Shown here: positions 20,383 to 26,962 of the stretch, piece after piece
Position numbering within the stretch: the first letter of the stretch is position 1
Layout: every line of letters starts with the position of its first letter
Assembly: GCA_012513515.1 (NCBI GenBank)
Contig: JAAZCA010000016.1
Span: 1-46,488, forward strand
Source of the DNA: Myxococcales bacterium
GTDB lineage: Bacteria; UBA10199; 2-02-FULL-44-16; JAAZCA01
Length of the DNA stretch: 46,488 nt
Reading direction: 5' to 3'
Program-made: the position numbers and the translations under genes
Notes under the pieces: generated by a model
Database searches by the model: none
The model's input: the letters and a program-made list of their open reading frames with translations, nothing else
What the model was told of the DNA's origin: nothing

Positions 20383-22827
20383 TTATCTTCCGCCTGTGAC
20401 TATTCTTTCGAATACGTAATCCATCACGCGCTCGTTTCCTATCTTTTCGACCGCCCCCCAAAACTCATCTTCGTGGGAAGCGACGTCTATCTCGCGCAGC
20501 GGCGCAACCGTTATCTCGAAATTCACATCGGAAATCATCGCATTGATCGCGGAATTTTCCGAAGGAGAGAGGTTTTCCCTGAACTCACGACGGCTCACGA
20601 GGCTCCATGTGTCTCCGAATAGAAGCGCTTTTATCAACGTGCGCAACTCCGCTGATCTCCACCTCTGCACGACCCCTTCTCCATCGGAGGCGGACTCGTT
20701 CAGATCGGAATTGGCGAATATAAGCGCAAGCCCCATCGAGGCCTCTCGCCCCATCCCGGATTCAAAAAGATTCGACATGTACAGCTTTATTTCAGCAGCC
20801 CTGTATTCGGCATCTCCTACGCTCGAGAGCCTGGCTATATCCCATTCCAGCGCCCTCGCCGCGGCGAAGCCCTTTGCGGAAGGAGTGCCCCCTTCGGACG
20901 AAAAACCCTCCCGCGCGCGAATGGACAATCCATCTTCCAGATGCGGCATCAGCGCGGAGATGGCGGAATCATCCGCAGCCTCATCGTCGTCAAACATGTT
21001 GGACGATATCGTCTCAATGCCCAGATAATCTTCCCACGCGTAAAAACCGTTGACATCGATGCCGAGCATCGAAGCCATATCGTATTGCAGATCGACTATC
21101 CCTCTAGAACCTCCCCTGTCGAACAGGGGCGTAAACTGCGCGGCGAGTTTCATGGATTTGAAAATCAAGGTTCTCCATTGATCCGCACGGAGAGGAAGCA
21201 CGCCTTCGTAATAAAGCTTGAGATGCGCATTAAAACTTTCCATTATGAGACCGTTCTCCATCGATGACGGTCCCATTCGCAGCTGCGATATGATCATCGA
21301 AACCAGGCGGTCGCGAAGGCTGGAGCCCGGCATCTCGATGGGTATCTGCTTGTATGCGCTTTCGCCGCCCGGCATGCCAACTCCGAAGAGGCCGCGCTGA
21401 TTGTAAGTATGAACTCCGCGTCGCCACCCTTGCGAAACGGTTTCGGAAGGGGCGGTGATAAAGGCCCTATTAGTTCCAGACTCCTTCCATCCTGCAAAGA
21501 CGAGTTTTTCTCCGTCGCGGAAAAAATGTCGCTCAACGGGAATGCCGGATATCGTCCCTGAAACTATGACTTCATCTTTATCCCCTGAAATATCGCGCAC
21601 CGGCGCAAATTCGAGATCGGCATCTTCATCAGAGGCGATATCTTCAGAGGAAGCATACGGCCTGCCGGAAAGCGAAGAGATGGGTGAAAAAAGCTTACCG
21701 ACAGGGAATGCTGTCCGGGGTGCACTTCCTCTTGTTTTGCTTTCAACTTCCGCCCTCTTTGAAGCCCCGAGTTTCGTGGCCATTCGATTCGGATCGGCGG
21801 ATGATTTTGCAAACACGCTTCCGACACCCCTCCCTTTTTCAGGGAGCGATGCCGGGTCACTGATAAAATCCGCATCCGGGGCTGCTGGATAAGCTGCTAG
21901 TTCGCCCGCGGAGGATAGAGAAGCTTTGGACGCCTGATGTGCTTTTAATGAATGTTCCTTGAGGGCTCCGCCCAAAGGGGTCGATCGAAAATCGTCGGAG
22001 AAAAACTGCCAATGGGAACCTGATGCTACATCCCTAGCCGAAGCGAAATCATCAGAAAGATCGAGGGACTGCGATGACCCTGATGAAGATGCTGAAGGAG
22101 ACTCTCTCTCCGCCGATTTTTCGCCAGCCCCCTCGACCTCCATTCCTTCTGAAAGTTCCGCGCTCCGATAGGCTTCAACGGAGAATGGCTCAACGAAACC
22201 CGAAGCTGCTTTTACATCGTCCTTAGATTCCGAAGGGGATGAAGCTGTTATTTGCAGATCCAGAGATGGCCTAAGAATATTTTTTTTCGCAGCTGCTGCA
22301 ACATTCTGAAAAGTTGAAGTCAGAACCTCCGGGAAAATCTCATCGAGGGGGAGCTGCGCACCGACACCCGTCGCAAGCGCTCCGCCATTTTTAAGCGAGT
22401 CAGCGACTGAAAGGATGGAGAGCGCCCTCGAACCGGCGACTATCTCCTGCCTCTTGTCGTGCGTGACCGCTTCAGCCAAAAAAGGATTTACACTGGAAAT
22501 CACACTTTGGGACTGCTGCCAAAAGGCCCTAAATTGCGAAGAAGCCGAAAGCGCAAAAGTTCCCGATGCCGCAGTTGGTGTAAAAGCGGGCATAGAAAGG
22601 GGCACGGGCTGCAAAACAGGCAGACCGACGACCGGAAAAGCGCTTACAGGTGCTTTTGCTATCATTTCCCTGTGCGCGGGCGAAAAAACGCAAAGACCCG
22701 CAACCCTCCTCTGTACGATGTCGTTATCGGACAGCTTTTGCTCAAGTTGCTTAATTTTGAAAAAATTTTCACAGCCAATCATTAGAAAGAGTGAAAAGCA
22801 GATCAAATACTTTTCATGCCGAAGCAA
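20383..22827 (-). CDS. Large Ser/Ala-rich putative lipoprotein, unknown function
   Basis: I do not recognise this 814-residue protein. From TTG at 22827 it has a basic start, a hydrophobic stretch and Cys at LMIGC, a plausible though imperfect lipobox, so export is likely. The first half (to about residue 420) is low-complexity, rich in Ser, Ala, Pro and acidic residues, and probably disordered. The second half is ordered, starting near DEVIVSGTISGIPVERHFF, with helical segments (LRDRLVSMIISQL, LEWDIARLSSV). No catalytic motif is evident. The frame opens at another TTG (22881) that lacks a ribosome site. It is divergent from the AAA+-like gene and ends against the TrpE-like gene. Confidence 0.6.
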   Translation of the reverse strand: MLRHEKYLICFSLFLMIGCENFFKIKQLEQKLSDNDIVQRRVAGLCVFSPAHREMIAKAPVSAFPVVGLPVLQPVPLSMPAFTPTAASGTFALSASSQFRAFWQQSQSVISSVNPFLAEAVTHDKRQEIVAGSRALSILSVADSLKNGGALATGVGAQLPLDEIFPEVLTSTFQNVAAAAKKNILRPSLDLQITASSPSESKDDVKAASGFVEPFSVEAYRSAELSEGMEVEGAGEKSAERESPSASSSGSSQSLDLSDDFASARDVASGSHWQFFSDDFRSTPLGGALKEHSLKAHQASKASLSSAGELAAYPAAPDADFISDPASLPEKGRGVGSVFAKSSADPNRMATKLGASKRAEVESKTRGSAPRTAFPVGKLFSPISSLSGRPYASSEDIASDEDADLEFAPVRDISGDKDEVIVSGTISGIPVERHFFRDGEKLVFAGWKESGTNRAFITAPSETVSQGWRRGVHTYNQRGLFGVGMPGGESAYKQIPIEMPGSSLRDRLVSMIISQLRMGPSSMENGLIMESFNAHLKLYYEGVLPLRADQWRTLIFKSMKLAAQFTPLFDRGGSRGIVDLQYDMASMLGIDVNGFYAWEDYLGIETISSNMFDDDEAADDSAISALMPHLEDGLSIRAREGFSSEGGTPSAKGFAAARALEWDIARLSSVGDAEYRAAEIKLYMSNLFESGMGREASMGLALIFANSDLNESASDGEGVVQRWRSAELRTLIKALLFGDTWSLVSRREFRENLSPSENSAINAMISDVNFEITVAPLREIDVASHEDEFWGAVEKIGNERVMDYVFERIVTGGR

Positions 22828-22909
22828 CCTCGACCTTTTAGATCCGATAACTATGCAGAGGATAAACAATGGCGGTAACAATGACAGAGCTAATTGACAG
22901 AACTAATAC

Positions 22910-22955
22910 GCAACATTCCCATTTTTTCGCCGATAATAGCTATGAAGCCCGGGGG
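22910..22955 (+). promoter_or_regulatory. 46-bp conserved element, copy 1 (sigma-28-like box)
   Basis: This 46-bp stretch matches 25837-25882 with only two differences. It holds GCAACATT, 11 bases, GCCGATAA (22929-22936). The second half equals the FliA -10 consensus and the spacing is right, although the -35 matches TAAAGTTT at only 4 of 8 positions. Downstream, ATGAAGCCCGGGGG is also conserved; from ATG 22942 the frame is open into the following gene. It lies 53 bases before that gene's start. Confidence 0.75.
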
Positions 22956-23007
22956 CTGGCTTACATTCCTTTATTTTTCAATAGGTTCGGTTGAAAGGAG
23001 TTTTCCT

Positions 23008-25704
23008 ATGTTTTCAGGCGGAAAGACAGATATAGCTAGAACCGGTTTATCGCGCCGCGGTTGCGGACATAACGGCACCACCTGTGAAAGTAACGAGGAA
23101 TATCCGGTTTGCGCATCCGCAAGCCGGCAAGAATCGGAGATCCCTTCCACCTATGTCAGTGTAGGAAGCAATACAAGGCTCTTCGATATTCCGGGAAGGC
23201 TCCTCGGATTTGTGAATTTAAGGTCACTTACACCAAAGGAAACTGCCAAAGTACGCGTCGACGAGGATGGAAATGTAGGGTCCAGATACAATATTTCCGG
23301 CATAGCCGGGGTTTGCCGTTCGGATGAAGAGTTCATATTCGACGCCAAAGGCAATATCGTTCCGGAAGAAATCGTTCAGCTGCACAAGGAACAGTTAGGA
23401 GCACTCGCGGGTCTTTTGGAGCAGAACAAGCTAAACGACACTCAGACATCCTATCTGAGAGATCTAGCCGAAACTATGAAGGGCTACAGGAAGGACTACG
23501 CATTCTTCGGATATTCCGACGATATCGGCAAAGAGGGAGCGCTTGCGCTCTACAACCAGTTGAAGCCATTCGACCAAGGATACGACGAAGGCGGTATAAA
23601 GCTCACGGTAGAAGAGATGCGCACCGTCGCGCAGATCGCCGGAATGAACGAGGATGATTTCAGATGCGCTTCGGGAGAATGCCCCGGCCTCAATGAAGAT
23701 TTCGAATCGGAGGGGCTAAATGCGACGGGGAGGTACCTCTTCAAGGCTGTGGGGCCCGGTAGACCGGAGAGGATAGAAGATTTCATAAAACTAATTAAGG
23801 AGTCAGGGGATGCGATTGATCGGGAAAAAAAGGCAAAGATCATAGAATATCTGGAAACTGTCAAAAGCTTCCAGACTCAACAGTTTGACCAACAGATGGA
23901 AGCAAGCAAAAAAATGACTGAATCTCAGCTCGAGGTGGCCCGCGAACAGATGGACCAGATGGCCATGTGGCAAAAACTGGCGATCCTTCTTCAGCTGCTT
24001 TTCATAGGCATAATAGGATGGGACAGATTCGTGCAGGCCTACAAGAAAATTGCAGGCAAGGAGCTCGCCGTATCCGACTTCAGCAAAGTCGTCAAAGGGA
24101 TGCTTAAGATCAACCCTACCCTGGAAATGACAGGCAGAGTTGAAGAAGCGCACGAAGCATGGAGAAAAACGGACACCCCGGGATTCCGAGGCATAATGTT
24201 CGACGAGCTCCCTAGGGAGGGGAAAGACTCTGTAGCGCTTCAGATGCTCATATTGAAAGAAAAAAGGGATCCCTCCGTTCCCAAAGACATGCTAGATGCC
24301 CCTGTTTATAAAATAAACGCGGCTGAATTTCAGTCAGGCACAAAGTACAGAGGCACTGTGGCCGACAAAGTCGCAAAGATAAGAAAGCTAGCCGAGAGAG
24401 GACCGGTTGTAGTATACATTTCAGAAATCGATCTTATATTCGCCAGCGGCAGCACATCAGATGGGGCATCCGAACAGGTAGGAAAGCTGATGCTCGACCT
24501 TTTGGAAGATCCTAAAGTTCAAAAAAATCTCGTCATCATAGGGACTACGAGCAGAGGGGGAAGATTCACACCTAAGAGCGAAGAACGCCCTGACGGCATG
24601 AAAACGATGATAGAGACTTTTCCGGATTTAGACGGAAGGTTTAACTGGGTAAAGATTCATAGATATACCCTCGCCGAGGTCATCCAAATCGCTACGGGCG
24701 AAAACTCTTCTGTAAAAAAGAAATATTCCGACTTTTATCGAGTCGAAATCCCGAATGAAATCATGGATGCCTCTGCAAAGGCGGGAGAGCACTTCTATAG
24801 AGCTAATCATCCAACCCTTGCAAGATTCCCGGCATTCACCCAGGTGATAGAAAATGCCTGCCGAATGGCGAGGGATTCCGGCTCAGCAATCGTTACTATG
24901 GATCATGTTTCGAGAGCGATATCTGAAATTACAAAAACGTCAATCTCGCTAGAGGAATTGACTAAAGTCGCAAGTATGAGCATTGAGGAGGTGGAAAAGC
25001 CGCTATGGGATGGAACGGCAGAAGGGCTGAAGACCTTTAAAGTTGCGGCCGCCGAAAACCCAATGTTCGACGTTGATGCAAGGTTTGAAGAAATGATCAG
25101 AACCGATCCGATCTTTGGAGGAGAAGTGGAAAGCTATTCCAGACTTGAAGGGAATTTTGCCCGCATGGTCACCGACATGTCGGTCGCCTACTGGGAATCT
25201 TTGGGCAAAGAGGAAAAAATACGGTTCTTGCGAGCATCCGCCGTAAACGATCCTACAGGAAGACGCGTAATGAGAGAGGTAAACGGGATCCCGGCGATAA
25301 TAGTCGAGCAGTTCGTGAGAACAGCGACGGATGAATGTCCATCGTTGGAGAGACTGGATCTAATCGCATCCGGTAAAATCGTCGAAGCAGTTGGAGCCAG
25401 GGTTCAAGGTGGCAGAGTGGCCACTCGCCAGCTCTCGGAAGAAGAATTAAACATCCTTGAGGCTGACACCGAATATCAAAAAATGGACGCCAGAGGAAAA
25501 GAACAGGCAAAGCTCCAGTTGCGCATGATCTTGTCGAGCGCCGAACTTCAGAAGGTCAATGGCTTCAATAGGGCCGATGCCGCTTCCGTCGGAAAGTTCA
25601 CCAAACAATTTGTGGAGCGAAGAGGGGAGAGGATAGAGCAGCTCAAGCGGGATCGTAAACGAGGCGAACGCGGGAGAAGGATAGATCCGAGATTCGCATT
25701 CTGA
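23008..25704 (+). CDS. Membrane-anchored ClpA/B-like AAA+ protein with altered Walker motifs
   Basis: The 898-residue protein starts at ATG 23008 behind AAAGGAG. Residues 1-270 are unfamiliar and contain several cysteines. A coiled coil rich in Gln/Met (about 285-318) leads into one membrane segment (about 320-340, LAILLQLLFIGIIGW). Residues about 390-650 follow the first AAA+ domain of ClpA/ClpB: the pore-loop motif SGTKYRG, Walker B position VVVYISEID, sensor-1 NLVIIGTTS, arginine-finger region LDGRFNWVKI, and a helical lid. Walker A reads LPREGKDS instead of GxxGxGKT, and Walker B has Ser for the first Asp, so ATP hydrolysis is doubtful. The C-terminal 240 residues are unfamiliar, helical and highly charged. 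Function unknown. Confidence 0.7.
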   Translation: MFSGGKTDIARTGLSRRGCGHNGTTCESNEEYPVCASASRQESEIPSTYVSVGSNTRLFDIPGRLLGFVNLRSLTPKETAKVRVDEDGNVGSRYNISGIAGVCRSDEEFIFDAKGNIVPEEIVQLHKEQLGALAGLLEQNKLNDTQTSYLRDLAETMKGYRKDYAFFGYSDDIGKEGALALYNQLKPFDQGYDEGGIKLTVEEMRTVAQIAGMNEDDFRCASGECPGLNEDFESEGLNATGRYLFKAVGPGRPERIEDFIKLIKESGDAIDREKKAKIIEYLETVKSFQTQQFDQQMEASKKMTESQLEVAREQMDQMAMWQKLAILLQLLFIGIIGWDRFVQAYKKIAGKELAVSDFSKVVKGMLKINPTLEMTGRVEEAHEAWRKTDTPGFRGIMFDELPREGKDSVALQMLILKEKRDPSVPKDMLDAPVYKINAAEFQSGTKYRGTVADKVAKIRKLAERGPVVVYISEIDLIFASGSTSDGASEQVGKLMLDLLEDPKVQKNLVIIGTTSRGGRFTPKSEERPDGMKTMIETFPDLDGRFNWVKIHRYTLAEVIQIATGENSSVKKKYSDFYRVEIPNEIMDASAKAGEHFYRANHPTLARFPAFTQVIENACRMARDSGSAIVTMDHVSRAISEITKTSISLEELTKVASMSIEEVEKPLWDGTAEGLKTFKVAAAENPMFDVDARFEEMIRTDPIFGGEVESYSRLEGNFARMVTDMSVAYWESLGKEEKIRFLRASAVNDPTGRRVMREVNGIPAIIVEQFVRTATDECPSLERLDLIASGKIVEAVGARVQGGRVATRQLSEEELNILEADTEYQKMDARGKEQAKLQLRMILSSAELQKVNGFNRADAASVGKFTKQFVERRGERIEQLKRDRKRGERGRRIDPRFAF

Positions 25705-25728
25705 TTAAAACGATGAAGATTAGAACTC

Positions 25729-25763
25729 ATAAGGGAGGGGCATCCCTCTCCCTTATCTTTTTC
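25729..25763 (+). terminator. Rho-independent terminator after the AAA+-like gene
   Basis: ATAAGGGAG pairs with CTCCCTTAT, extended inside by GGG/CCC around a CAT loop, and is followed by CTTTTTC. It lies 25 bases past the stop. It separates this gene from the next, which therefore needs its own promoter. Confidence 0.85.
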
Positions 25764-25836
25764 ATCCGAGCCGGCCCATAGATTAAAGTAAATAAAATCA
25801 TATAGTTAAGAGCAAAAATGCTTTTTGTAAGATCAA

Positions 25837-25882
25837 GCAACATTCCCATTTTTTTGCCGATAATAGTTATGAAGCCCGGGGG
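25837..25882 (+). promoter_or_regulatory. 46-bp conserved element, copy 2 (sigma-28-like box)
   Basis: This is the second copy of the element at 22910-22955, with two substitutions. GCAACATT, 11 bases, GCCGATAA (25856-25863), TAGTT, ATGAAGCCCGGGGG. From ATG 25869 there is a 15-codon ORF (MKPGGAAVESVIFDM) ending at 25916, out of frame with the next gene. The element lies 51 bases before that gene's start, nearly the same distance as copy 1 (52). Confidence 0.75.
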
Positions 25883-25933
25883 GGCCGCTGTTGAATCTGT
25901 TATTTTCGACATGTAACGGCTCAAGGAGGCTTT

Positions 25934-26962
25934 ATGGTAGGAGCAGGTGAAACGCTAGTTCAGACCTTCAAACCCATCGAGCAGGTCGCAGCCGAAAACG
26001 GCATAACCATGGATGAACTTGAGACGACTCCCGCAACGAAGGCCGCGGTCGGACCATATACCGTAAATTACACAGAGGAAGAACGAATATTTGGAGTGGT
26101 CGCTGAAGGCCCCTACAAAGGGGAGGTTATAGGCCCTTGCAATCAGGGATCGGAAGGGATGCTCTTATCGGATGTATATCTGAGCGCCGATGAGGCTAAG
26201 GCGATAAGGGACACTGCCGGGATAGAGCGAAATATTCTATTCCTCGATATGGATTCCACAAAGGAAGGGATGTACTGCGTAAAGTCATCTCACGCCAAAC
26301 ACGTAGCAGCGACCATGGATTGCAACGACCTGGAAGAAAGCATAATGCCCGATTTCATAGAACACTTCTACGGCATCACCAGATATCTCCCCGTCCCTGG
26401 AAACAGCAGATGTGCTAAAATAATGGACTCGCTGGCGCCATCGATGCTAGTTGAGGGAGTCAAAATCGGTTCGGGATTCGTGGTCGCCGGCATAGCGGGC
26501 GAAAGGATAGTAAAACTCATAACCGGCAAATCCCTGATCAAGGGCCCCGCCAAAAAAGTCGTCCAAGAAAGCCCCTCACCACCTGTCAACGCGAGCGGAA
26601 GGCCGATCGTTCACACCGTGGAAAAGGGAGCAAAAAGAACTTCTAAACTCGCTAGAAGAGGAATCCACAAGGGTCTTAGAAGAGCTGCGAGCAAGGTTCC
26701 AGGATCGTTAAAGATCGTGGCCTTAGTGGCCGTCGGAGCTGGAATCGTGGTATTTTCATCAGAAAAGGCAAAGGCCTCCCCAAAACCCGGCCATTTCGTA
26801 CCACTTGAAGAGATCCGCAGACCGACGAATTTCTATGACATAGGAAACGGCAAGGTATCGCTCTATGATACCTGCAAAGCCTCGACAGGGTGCTATTTTC
26901 TGAATTGGATGATGTCCGGATTAGATTGGTACTTTGCACAAACGAGCAGCGAAGCGCATTAA
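25934..26962 (+). CDS. Unknown basic membrane-associated protein
   Basis: I do not recognise this 342-residue protein. ATG at 25934 follows AAGGAGG. Residues 1-175 form an acidic, mostly polar domain with cysteines near 69, 114, 130 and 160. A hydrophobic segment follows (GSGFVVAGIAGERIVKLI, about 178-195), then a Lys/Arg-rich linker (about 200-252). A clear membrane helix (IVALVAVGAGIVVF, about 257-270) precedes a C-terminal domain ending in a CKASTGCYFLNWMMSGLDWYF segment. There is no obvious signal peptide. It shares its upstream 46-bp element with the preceding AAA+-like gene, suggesting co-regulation and perhaps a joint role at the membrane; that is inference. Confidence 0.65.
   Translation: MVGAGETLVQTFKPIEQVAAENGITMDELETTPATKAAVGPYTVNYTEEERIFGVVAEGPYKGEVIGPCNQGSEGMLLSDVYLSADEAKAIRDTAGIERNILFLDMDSTKEGMYCVKSSHAKHVAATMDCNDLEESIMPDFIEHFYGITRYLPVPGNSRCAKIMDSLAPSMLVEGVKIGSGFVVAGIAGERIVKLITGKSLIKGPAKKVVQESPSPPVNASGRPIVHTVEKGAKRTSKLARRGIHKGLRRAASKVPGSLKIVALVAVGAGIVVFSSEKAKASPKPGHFVPLEEIRRPTNFYDIGNGKVSLYDTCKASTGCYFLNWMMSGLDWYFAQTSSEAH

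Follow-up and report, generated by a model that had tools for sequence, protein, structure and literature searches.

A putative sigma-28-derived regulon linked to a type III secretion operon in an uncultured bacterial lineage

We analysed a stretch of 46,488 nucleotides (positions 1 to 46,488 of contig JAAZCA010000016.1, assembly GCA_012513515.1; hereafter the window) from a Myxococcales bacterium, in which two near-identical 46-bp elements stand before two genes, one for an AAA+ ATPase (gene 1) and one for an orphan protein (gene 2). Judged by sequence, the core of these elements is a sigma-28-type promoter class, (A/C)GCAACTTTTT-N9-GCCGATAA, specific to the bacterial class to which the source genome belongs. 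The reading that we favor, to which we assign a probability of about 0.76, is that these promoters mark a sigma-28-derived regulon embedded in an injectisome, that the genes of the window are among its members, and that its reader is an orphan sigma factor of the FliA/WhiG-like kind, whose gene lies in a non-flagellar operon for a type III secretion system (T3SS). Specifically, the orphan sigma factor would recognise GCAAC-N14-GCCGATAA, its −10-reading part being FliA-like and its −35-reading helix altered to SKSWTSRLHARAL. In the T3SS operons, including that of the sigma factor itself, these boxes would stand 2 bp further apart, dispersed genes would use the 14-nt spacer, and the AAA+ ATPase gene, gene 2 and a divergent 760-aa gene would be co-regulated members.

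Both 46-mers, at 22910-22955 and 25837-25882, lie on the same strand, are equal at 44 of 46 positions and start 2927 nt from each other. The first is followed after 52 nt (22956-23007) by the ATG at 23008, which is preceded by the Shine-Dalgarno sequence AAAGGAG, and the second after 51 nt (25883-25933) by the ATG at 25934, preceded by AAGGAGG. The two copies, their spacing to the genes and their 2 differences in 46 positions were thus reproduced as described in the initial annotation, and its statement that a terminator separates two genes unlike each other (encoding 898- and 342-aa proteins) was also borne out. However, its inventory of elements was incomplete, as two further core sites, one on each strand, had been overlooked (Table 1). 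For the 27-mer core with up to 3 mismatches, shuffles of the window gave an expectation of 0, which excludes chance; GCCGATAA by itself is unremarkable in the window (4 found vs. 2.3 expected). The full 46-mer occurred just twice in the genome (1.79 Mb), a search of 59 other genomes gave no copy, and with two copies only it was rejected as a regulon marker. A search of Rfam gave no match.

The homologues of gene 1 and gene 2 in genome G002 have the same boxes upstream with other spacers, in the arrangement GCAAC-N14-GCCGATAA. This pattern was searched allowing at most one mismatch, and the reversed pattern was used as a control. The source genome (G000) contained 36 core sites as compared with 2 for the control, and every one of the 46 genomes of the class contained between 5 and 112 core sites, as compared with 0 to 5. 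A GCAACTT variant was found at 2 to 93 sites in the class genomes, whereas each of 72 genomes outside the class had 0 to 2. These counts support the earlier proposal of a lineage-specific regulon. In 471 kb of DNA from the source genome that had not been selected by the motif, 14 sites had a spacing of 14, 2 had a spacing of 16, and 0-2 were found at every other spacing.

A sequence logo made from 60 sites of three genomes (G000, G006 and G007) reads (A/C)GCAACTTTTTY, about 8 free positions, GCCGATAA, a T preference next and a start region rich in purines; the A/C ahead of GCAAC and the T tract emerged even though they were absent from the search pattern. All eight bases of GCCGATAA are conserved in the logo, and both window copies match at 8/8. 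The E. coli FliA promoter consensus is TAAAGTTT-N11-GCCGATAA. The −35 box found here, of the GCAACTTT type, agrees with TAAAGTTT at 5 of 8 positions and lies at the sigma-28 spacing of 11 nt from the −10, and GCAACTTT-N11-GCCGATAA is positionally equivalent to the FliA layout recognised in the initial annotation, with a changed −35. No sigma-70 −35 was seen at these promoters. Separately, a lone GCAACTT/ACCGATAA site with a spacing of 15 and a typical start region (L198:2978, minus strand; G000:C36) has no long open reading frame (ORF) near it.

Of 78 sites, 60 are followed at a distance of 2-100 nt by the start of an ORF of 60 aa or more. Under a stricter test, which asked that an ORF of 100 aa or more, provided with a Shine-Dalgarno sequence, lie 2-90 nt downstream, 6 of the 7 perfect sites and 15 of the 29 one-mismatch sites in the source genome were positive, compared with 10% of random positions. 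Orthologues retain the boxes while the spacers diverge, as observed for L056 of the source genome and L159 of G006 (43% identity), for L065 of the source genome, L158 of G006 and L169 of G007 (51-57%), for L023 of the source genome and L164 of G007 (48%), for the window ATPase and two G002 copies (41-43%), and for gene 2 and its counterpart in G002 (25%). Some mRNAs of the regulon may have no leader, since the start codon lies 2-10 nt past the −10 in 16 of the 60 sites from the three genomes used for the logo.

We detected three PF04542 proteins in the source genome, namely RpoD, an RpoH-like protein of 302 aa and the FliA/WhiG-like factor; none of the three is a sigma factor of the extracytoplasmic function (ECF) type, on which a HrpL-type assignment would depend. 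The FliA-like gene (G000:C17:45899-46780, minus strand) lies between sctJ and sctL. Its best family is FliA_WhiG, and the solved chains closest to its product include WhiG and FliA. The score against TIGR02479 was 132 bits, under the curated cut-off of 189.6, and as the genome also has no flagellin, assignment to the FliA equivalog (the flagellar sigma) was rejected. The orphan sigma was found in 42 of the 46 class genomes, within the T3SS operon in most relatives, and 39 of the 42 scored above 110 bits; the others were two contig-end fragments (G007, G037) and a short solo gene (G035). This last gene (L163:1007-1633, minus strand) encodes a 208-aa FliA-like factor from which most of the middle region is absent; the gene has no T3SS operon around it, and SctJ was not detected in its genome. 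The tree placed the orphan sigma in one clade with support of 99/98, true FliA being sampled by one long row only. The FliA −10-reading region is recognisably conserved in the orphan sigma (RIKGAIYDGLR..GW.PR), and its region-4.2 helix carries a near-invariant SKSWTSRLHARAL compared with ESR..QIH of the FliA type. This pattern fits a promoter that retained its −10 and altered its −35, the altered residues presumably facing the altered bases, and we infer that this sigma reads the motif. A search for a FlgM homologue beside the sigma gene gave no match, and the small neighbouring proteins are poorly conserved; FlgM-type anti-sigma control was dropped as a candidate.

The cluster containing the sigma gene encodes SctJ, SctL, SctN, SctR, SctS, SctT, LcrH/SycD-type chaperones and a SctQ split into separate FliM-like and FliN-like genes. 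SctJ, a lipoprotein, scored 129 bits with the non-flagellar model compared with 38 for FliF (TIGR02544 was the best model, with a score below its cut-off), and SctN passes the cut-offs of both the FliI_clade2 and SctN models. No flagellin was found in the source genome. As judged from its SctJ lipoprotein, export apparatus and ATPase, together with the absence of flagellin, the cluster is a non-flagellar T3SS. Of the 46 class genomes, only 4 have flagellin, and a true FliA scoring over the curated cut-off occurs in exactly these four. Near the T3SS cluster, a kinase-like protein (N-terminus, by eye) and a sigma-54-type activator are encoded (L145:8916-13153; G000:C17), which recall the flagellar sigma-54 to sigma-28 cascade.

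Loci selected by sctJ or the sigma gene, independently of the motif, contained 27 occurrences (21 distinct) of GCAAC-N16-[N]CCGATAA and none at spacing 15 or 17. Two places are conserved, one ahead of the gene that opens the sctJ operon and the other ahead of a small gene heading the sigma operon; the sites of the source genome, C17:49703(-) and C17:47507(-), are the sole two in the 471 kb. Because the sigma operon carries these boxes, the sigma gene is probably under its own promoter family, pointing to autoregulation. Boxes with the 2-bp longer spacer were observed ahead of T3SS/sigma operons at L080:11204(-) and L080:9008(-) and in the T3SS loci L106-L143 and L183, many relatives having them at this place. 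The spacer of this class often begins with TTNGGGT, giving two spacing classes within one promoter family. Our guess is that the 2-bp difference reflects another activator need or timing.

Most proteins downstream of the motif have no Pfam match, and the dispersed genes include those for large lipoproteins and orphan proteins. Among the recognisable products are a SET-domain protein, a RelA/SpoT domain, subtilases, thrombospondin type 3 repeats, a GGDEF sensor and a glycosyltransferase. A RelA/SpoT domain protein under the motif (L082:3-1490, minus strand) has a substrate-like uncharged N-terminus. We compared residues 2-31 in three genomes with simple ORF calling, signal-peptide-like proteins being excluded. 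At most 10% of these residues were charged in 20 of 51 regulon proteins compared with 8 of 68 background ORFs (p = 8e-4); the regulon N-termini were also richer in S/T/P, and charge at residues 100-130 was no different. The C17:1543 and C17:3883 proteins (L144:1543-3639 and L144:3883-4722) are 57% identical over 72 residues and then diverge; by reading, the 72-aa stretch is N-terminal in both, and their promoter leader is also common, the second protein having the SET domain. Type III effectors typically combine a shared N-terminus with bodies that have been exchanged. The N-termini thus suggest a type III-substrate-like bias at the level of the regulon, and its products are predicted to be exported.

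Several observations weigh against the proposed regulon and its reader. Four genomes (G006, G024, G025 and G041) show neither the orphan sigma nor the non-flagellar SctJ, yet the motif is kept; summed incompleteness values predict about 3.7 losses of any universal locus, but three of these four genomes are rated 95-99% complete. True FliA might read the motif in G025. In addition, a few one-mismatch sites lie within genes (e.g., dnaG, L085), the N-terminal background comprised only 82 ORFs with a crude choice of starts, and gene 1 and gene 2 are themselves without the typical N-terminus. The alternative that survives best, though we consider it unlikely, is that a genuine promoter class is served by a different sigma present in all the genomes, either the RpoH-like factor or RpoD with an activator, and that the link to secretion is only partial. 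It would account for G006, G024 and G041, which keep the motif and in which a FliA-like factor was not detected; RpoH-like and RpoD genes are present throughout the genomes, and GATAAT resembles the sigma-70 −10. On the other hand, all eight GCCGATAA bases and the exact sigma-28 spacing are conserved, with no −35 of the sigma-70 type, and the boxes are found on T3SS operons that contain the FliA-like gene. Furthermore, the regulon N-termini of G006 are still substrate-like, suggesting that the T3SS is missing from the G006 assembly.

We hold it considerably less probable that the 46-mer is a functional leader element beyond the promoter, such as an RNA structure, a protein site or a leaderless MKPGG peptide. 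The conservation past the −10 noted in the initial annotation is real, as 18 of 19 nt match, but the leader function that it proposed did not find support. A start-site consensus, TAnnnRTGRRRGG, is present in both promoter classes and is strongest with spacing 16, and transcription would start about 6-8 nt past the −10; the regulon-wide logo past the −10 is a weak RTGRRRGG. The identity from about AAGCCCGGGGG onward is special to the gene 1/gene 2 pair. In G002, the gene-2 homologue and a second ATPase homologue share a leader as well, over about 30 nt to the Shine-Dalgarno sequence. Four of five leaders folded no better than shuffles (z = +0.86, −0.86, +0.25 and +1.64), which speaks against an RNA site, although one G002 leader folded well (z = −2.05). 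A conserved MKPGG peptide is not indicated because the frames differ between the copies, the ATG of copy 1 being in frame with the gene and that of copy 2 opening an out-of-frame ORF of 15 codons, and because one orthologous G002 leader has no ATG at that position. The excess leader identity would most simply reflect a recent copying or gene conversion event between two neighbouring genes under common control.

The suggestion that motility genes are timed by FliA from a flagellar late-gene promoter has the exact FliA layout and −10 box in its favor, but it appears very improbable, as the source genome has no flagellin and no true FliA, its sole FliA-like sigma lies within a non-flagellar T3SS operon that has a lipoprotein SctJ and LcrH/SycD chaperones, and the flagellin loci of flagellated relatives are without a GCAAC promoter. 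Weakest of all is a dispersed repeat, which the initial annotation named as a refuting case, or a mobile element; this reading has the many core copies on its side and is practically negligible given that the boxes alone are conserved, the spacer sequences vary, and the sites are class-wide, of fixed spacing, and enriched in one orientation just upstream of genes.

Gene 1 and gene 2 are candidate members of the T3SS-linked regulon, on promoter evidence only. The AAA+ domain of gene 1 (PF00004) covers residues 429-523 (E = 1e-8), and a search of named genome contigs gave one match, a distant Gemmatimonadetes AAA protein. Homologues of both genes are present in three other genera; they lie side by side in G006, and in G002, where the gene 1 homologues carry the same promoter, the gene-2 homologue is downstream of the ATPase gene. 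The gene 2 family (homologues L014:5977, L016:2020 and L017:1882) adjoins an ATPase gene in at least three genera. C69, C115, C130 and C160 are invariant among four homologues, and a PDB search with gene 2 gave no match better than E = 0.3. The divergent gene had no Pfam match and is a candidate type III-type substrate.

Table 1. Features of the window around the two 46-bp elements
Feature	Position	Strand	Remarks
Divergent gene	20383..22665	-	about 760 aa; uncharged S/T/P/A-rich N-terminus (MIAKAPVSAFPVVGLPVLQPVPLSMPAFTPTAASG...)
Core-motif site for divergent gene	22724..22750	-	1 mismatch; 58 nt ahead of ATG 22665
Second, tandem core-motif site upstream of gene 1 (candidate)	22824..22850	+	1 mismatch
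Core promoter, gene 1	22910..22936	+	−35 GCAAC 22910-22914; 14-nt spacer with T tract; −10 GCCGATAA 22929-22936
Start-site region and leader beginning, gene 1	22937..22955	+	TAGCTATGAAGCCCGGGGG; 18/19 equal to copy 2
Gene 1	23008..25704	+	898 aa; putative transmembrane segment (by eye), then AAA+ ATPase domain
Intrinsic terminator between gene 1 and gene 2	25729..25756	+	strong; 12-bp stem, T tail
Core promoter, gene 2	25837..25863	+	−35 GCAAC 25837-25841; −10 GCCGATAA 25856-25863
Start-site region and leader beginning, gene 2	25864..25882	+	
Possible 15-codon mini-ORF	25869..25916	+	MKPGGAAVESVIFDM; not in the frame of gene 2; considered unconserved
Gene 2	25934..26962	+	342 aa orphan protein; hydrophobic segments (by eye)

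If the T3SS-linked regulon is true, a short DNA pattern would list the secretion-linked genes of a lineage not yet in culture, much as effectors of Pseudomonas syringae were listed by means of the hrp box, and the listed proteins would be co-regulated with, and perhaps exported by, the T3SS. It would also show how regulation of the flagellum passed to a secretion system of the non-flagellar kind, the export machine and its sigma both being from flagellum-related families. A wider version, which we put forward tentatively and at somewhat below even odds, is that throughout a phylum-level lineage the flagellar sigma-28 became the master sigma for an injection machine, with GCAAC-N16-[N]CCGATAA on the machine operons and GCAAC-N14-GCCGATAA on the substrates, the 2-bp difference timing the machine first; the promoter would then list new secreted proteins, including those of the three window genes. 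In the literature searched, we found no report of a FliA-like sigma within a T3SS operon.

Promoters of FliA/sigma-28 (SigD, WhiG) share with those described here the −10 GCCGATAA, its distance of 11 nt from an 8-nt −35 box and a sigma factor of the FliA/WhiG family; here, however, the −35 is GCAACTTT and not TAAAGTTT, the helix is SKSWTSRLHARAL and not ESR..QIH, and a secretion-linked gene set is found without a flagellum. HrpL belongs to the ECF type and has a box of another kind. In P. syringae, this one alternative sigma and one box drive T3SS, effector and non-effector genes (PMC3879358), which makes the HrpL regulon a functional analogue; unlike it, the system described here is of the sigma-28 type, and its T3SS operons and dispersed genes differ by a 2-bp spacer. 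Chlamydia trachomatis is likewise a T3SS-bearing bacterium that retained a FliA homologue, sigma-28, whose knock-down regulon consisted of hctB and tsp only, the authors speculating on a link to T3SS assembly (PMC10597470). In contrast, the sigma gene described here is located inside the T3SS operon, and the proposed regulon would run to tens of genes. The account of the origin of the T3SS from the flagellum leaves sigma factors unmentioned (PMC3459982). The early-branching non-flagellar T3SS of the Myxococcus type (PMC3459982) has flagellum-like parts, as does the present one with its FliM-like and FliN-like SctQ, whereas the cluster described here encodes LcrH/SycD-type chaperones.
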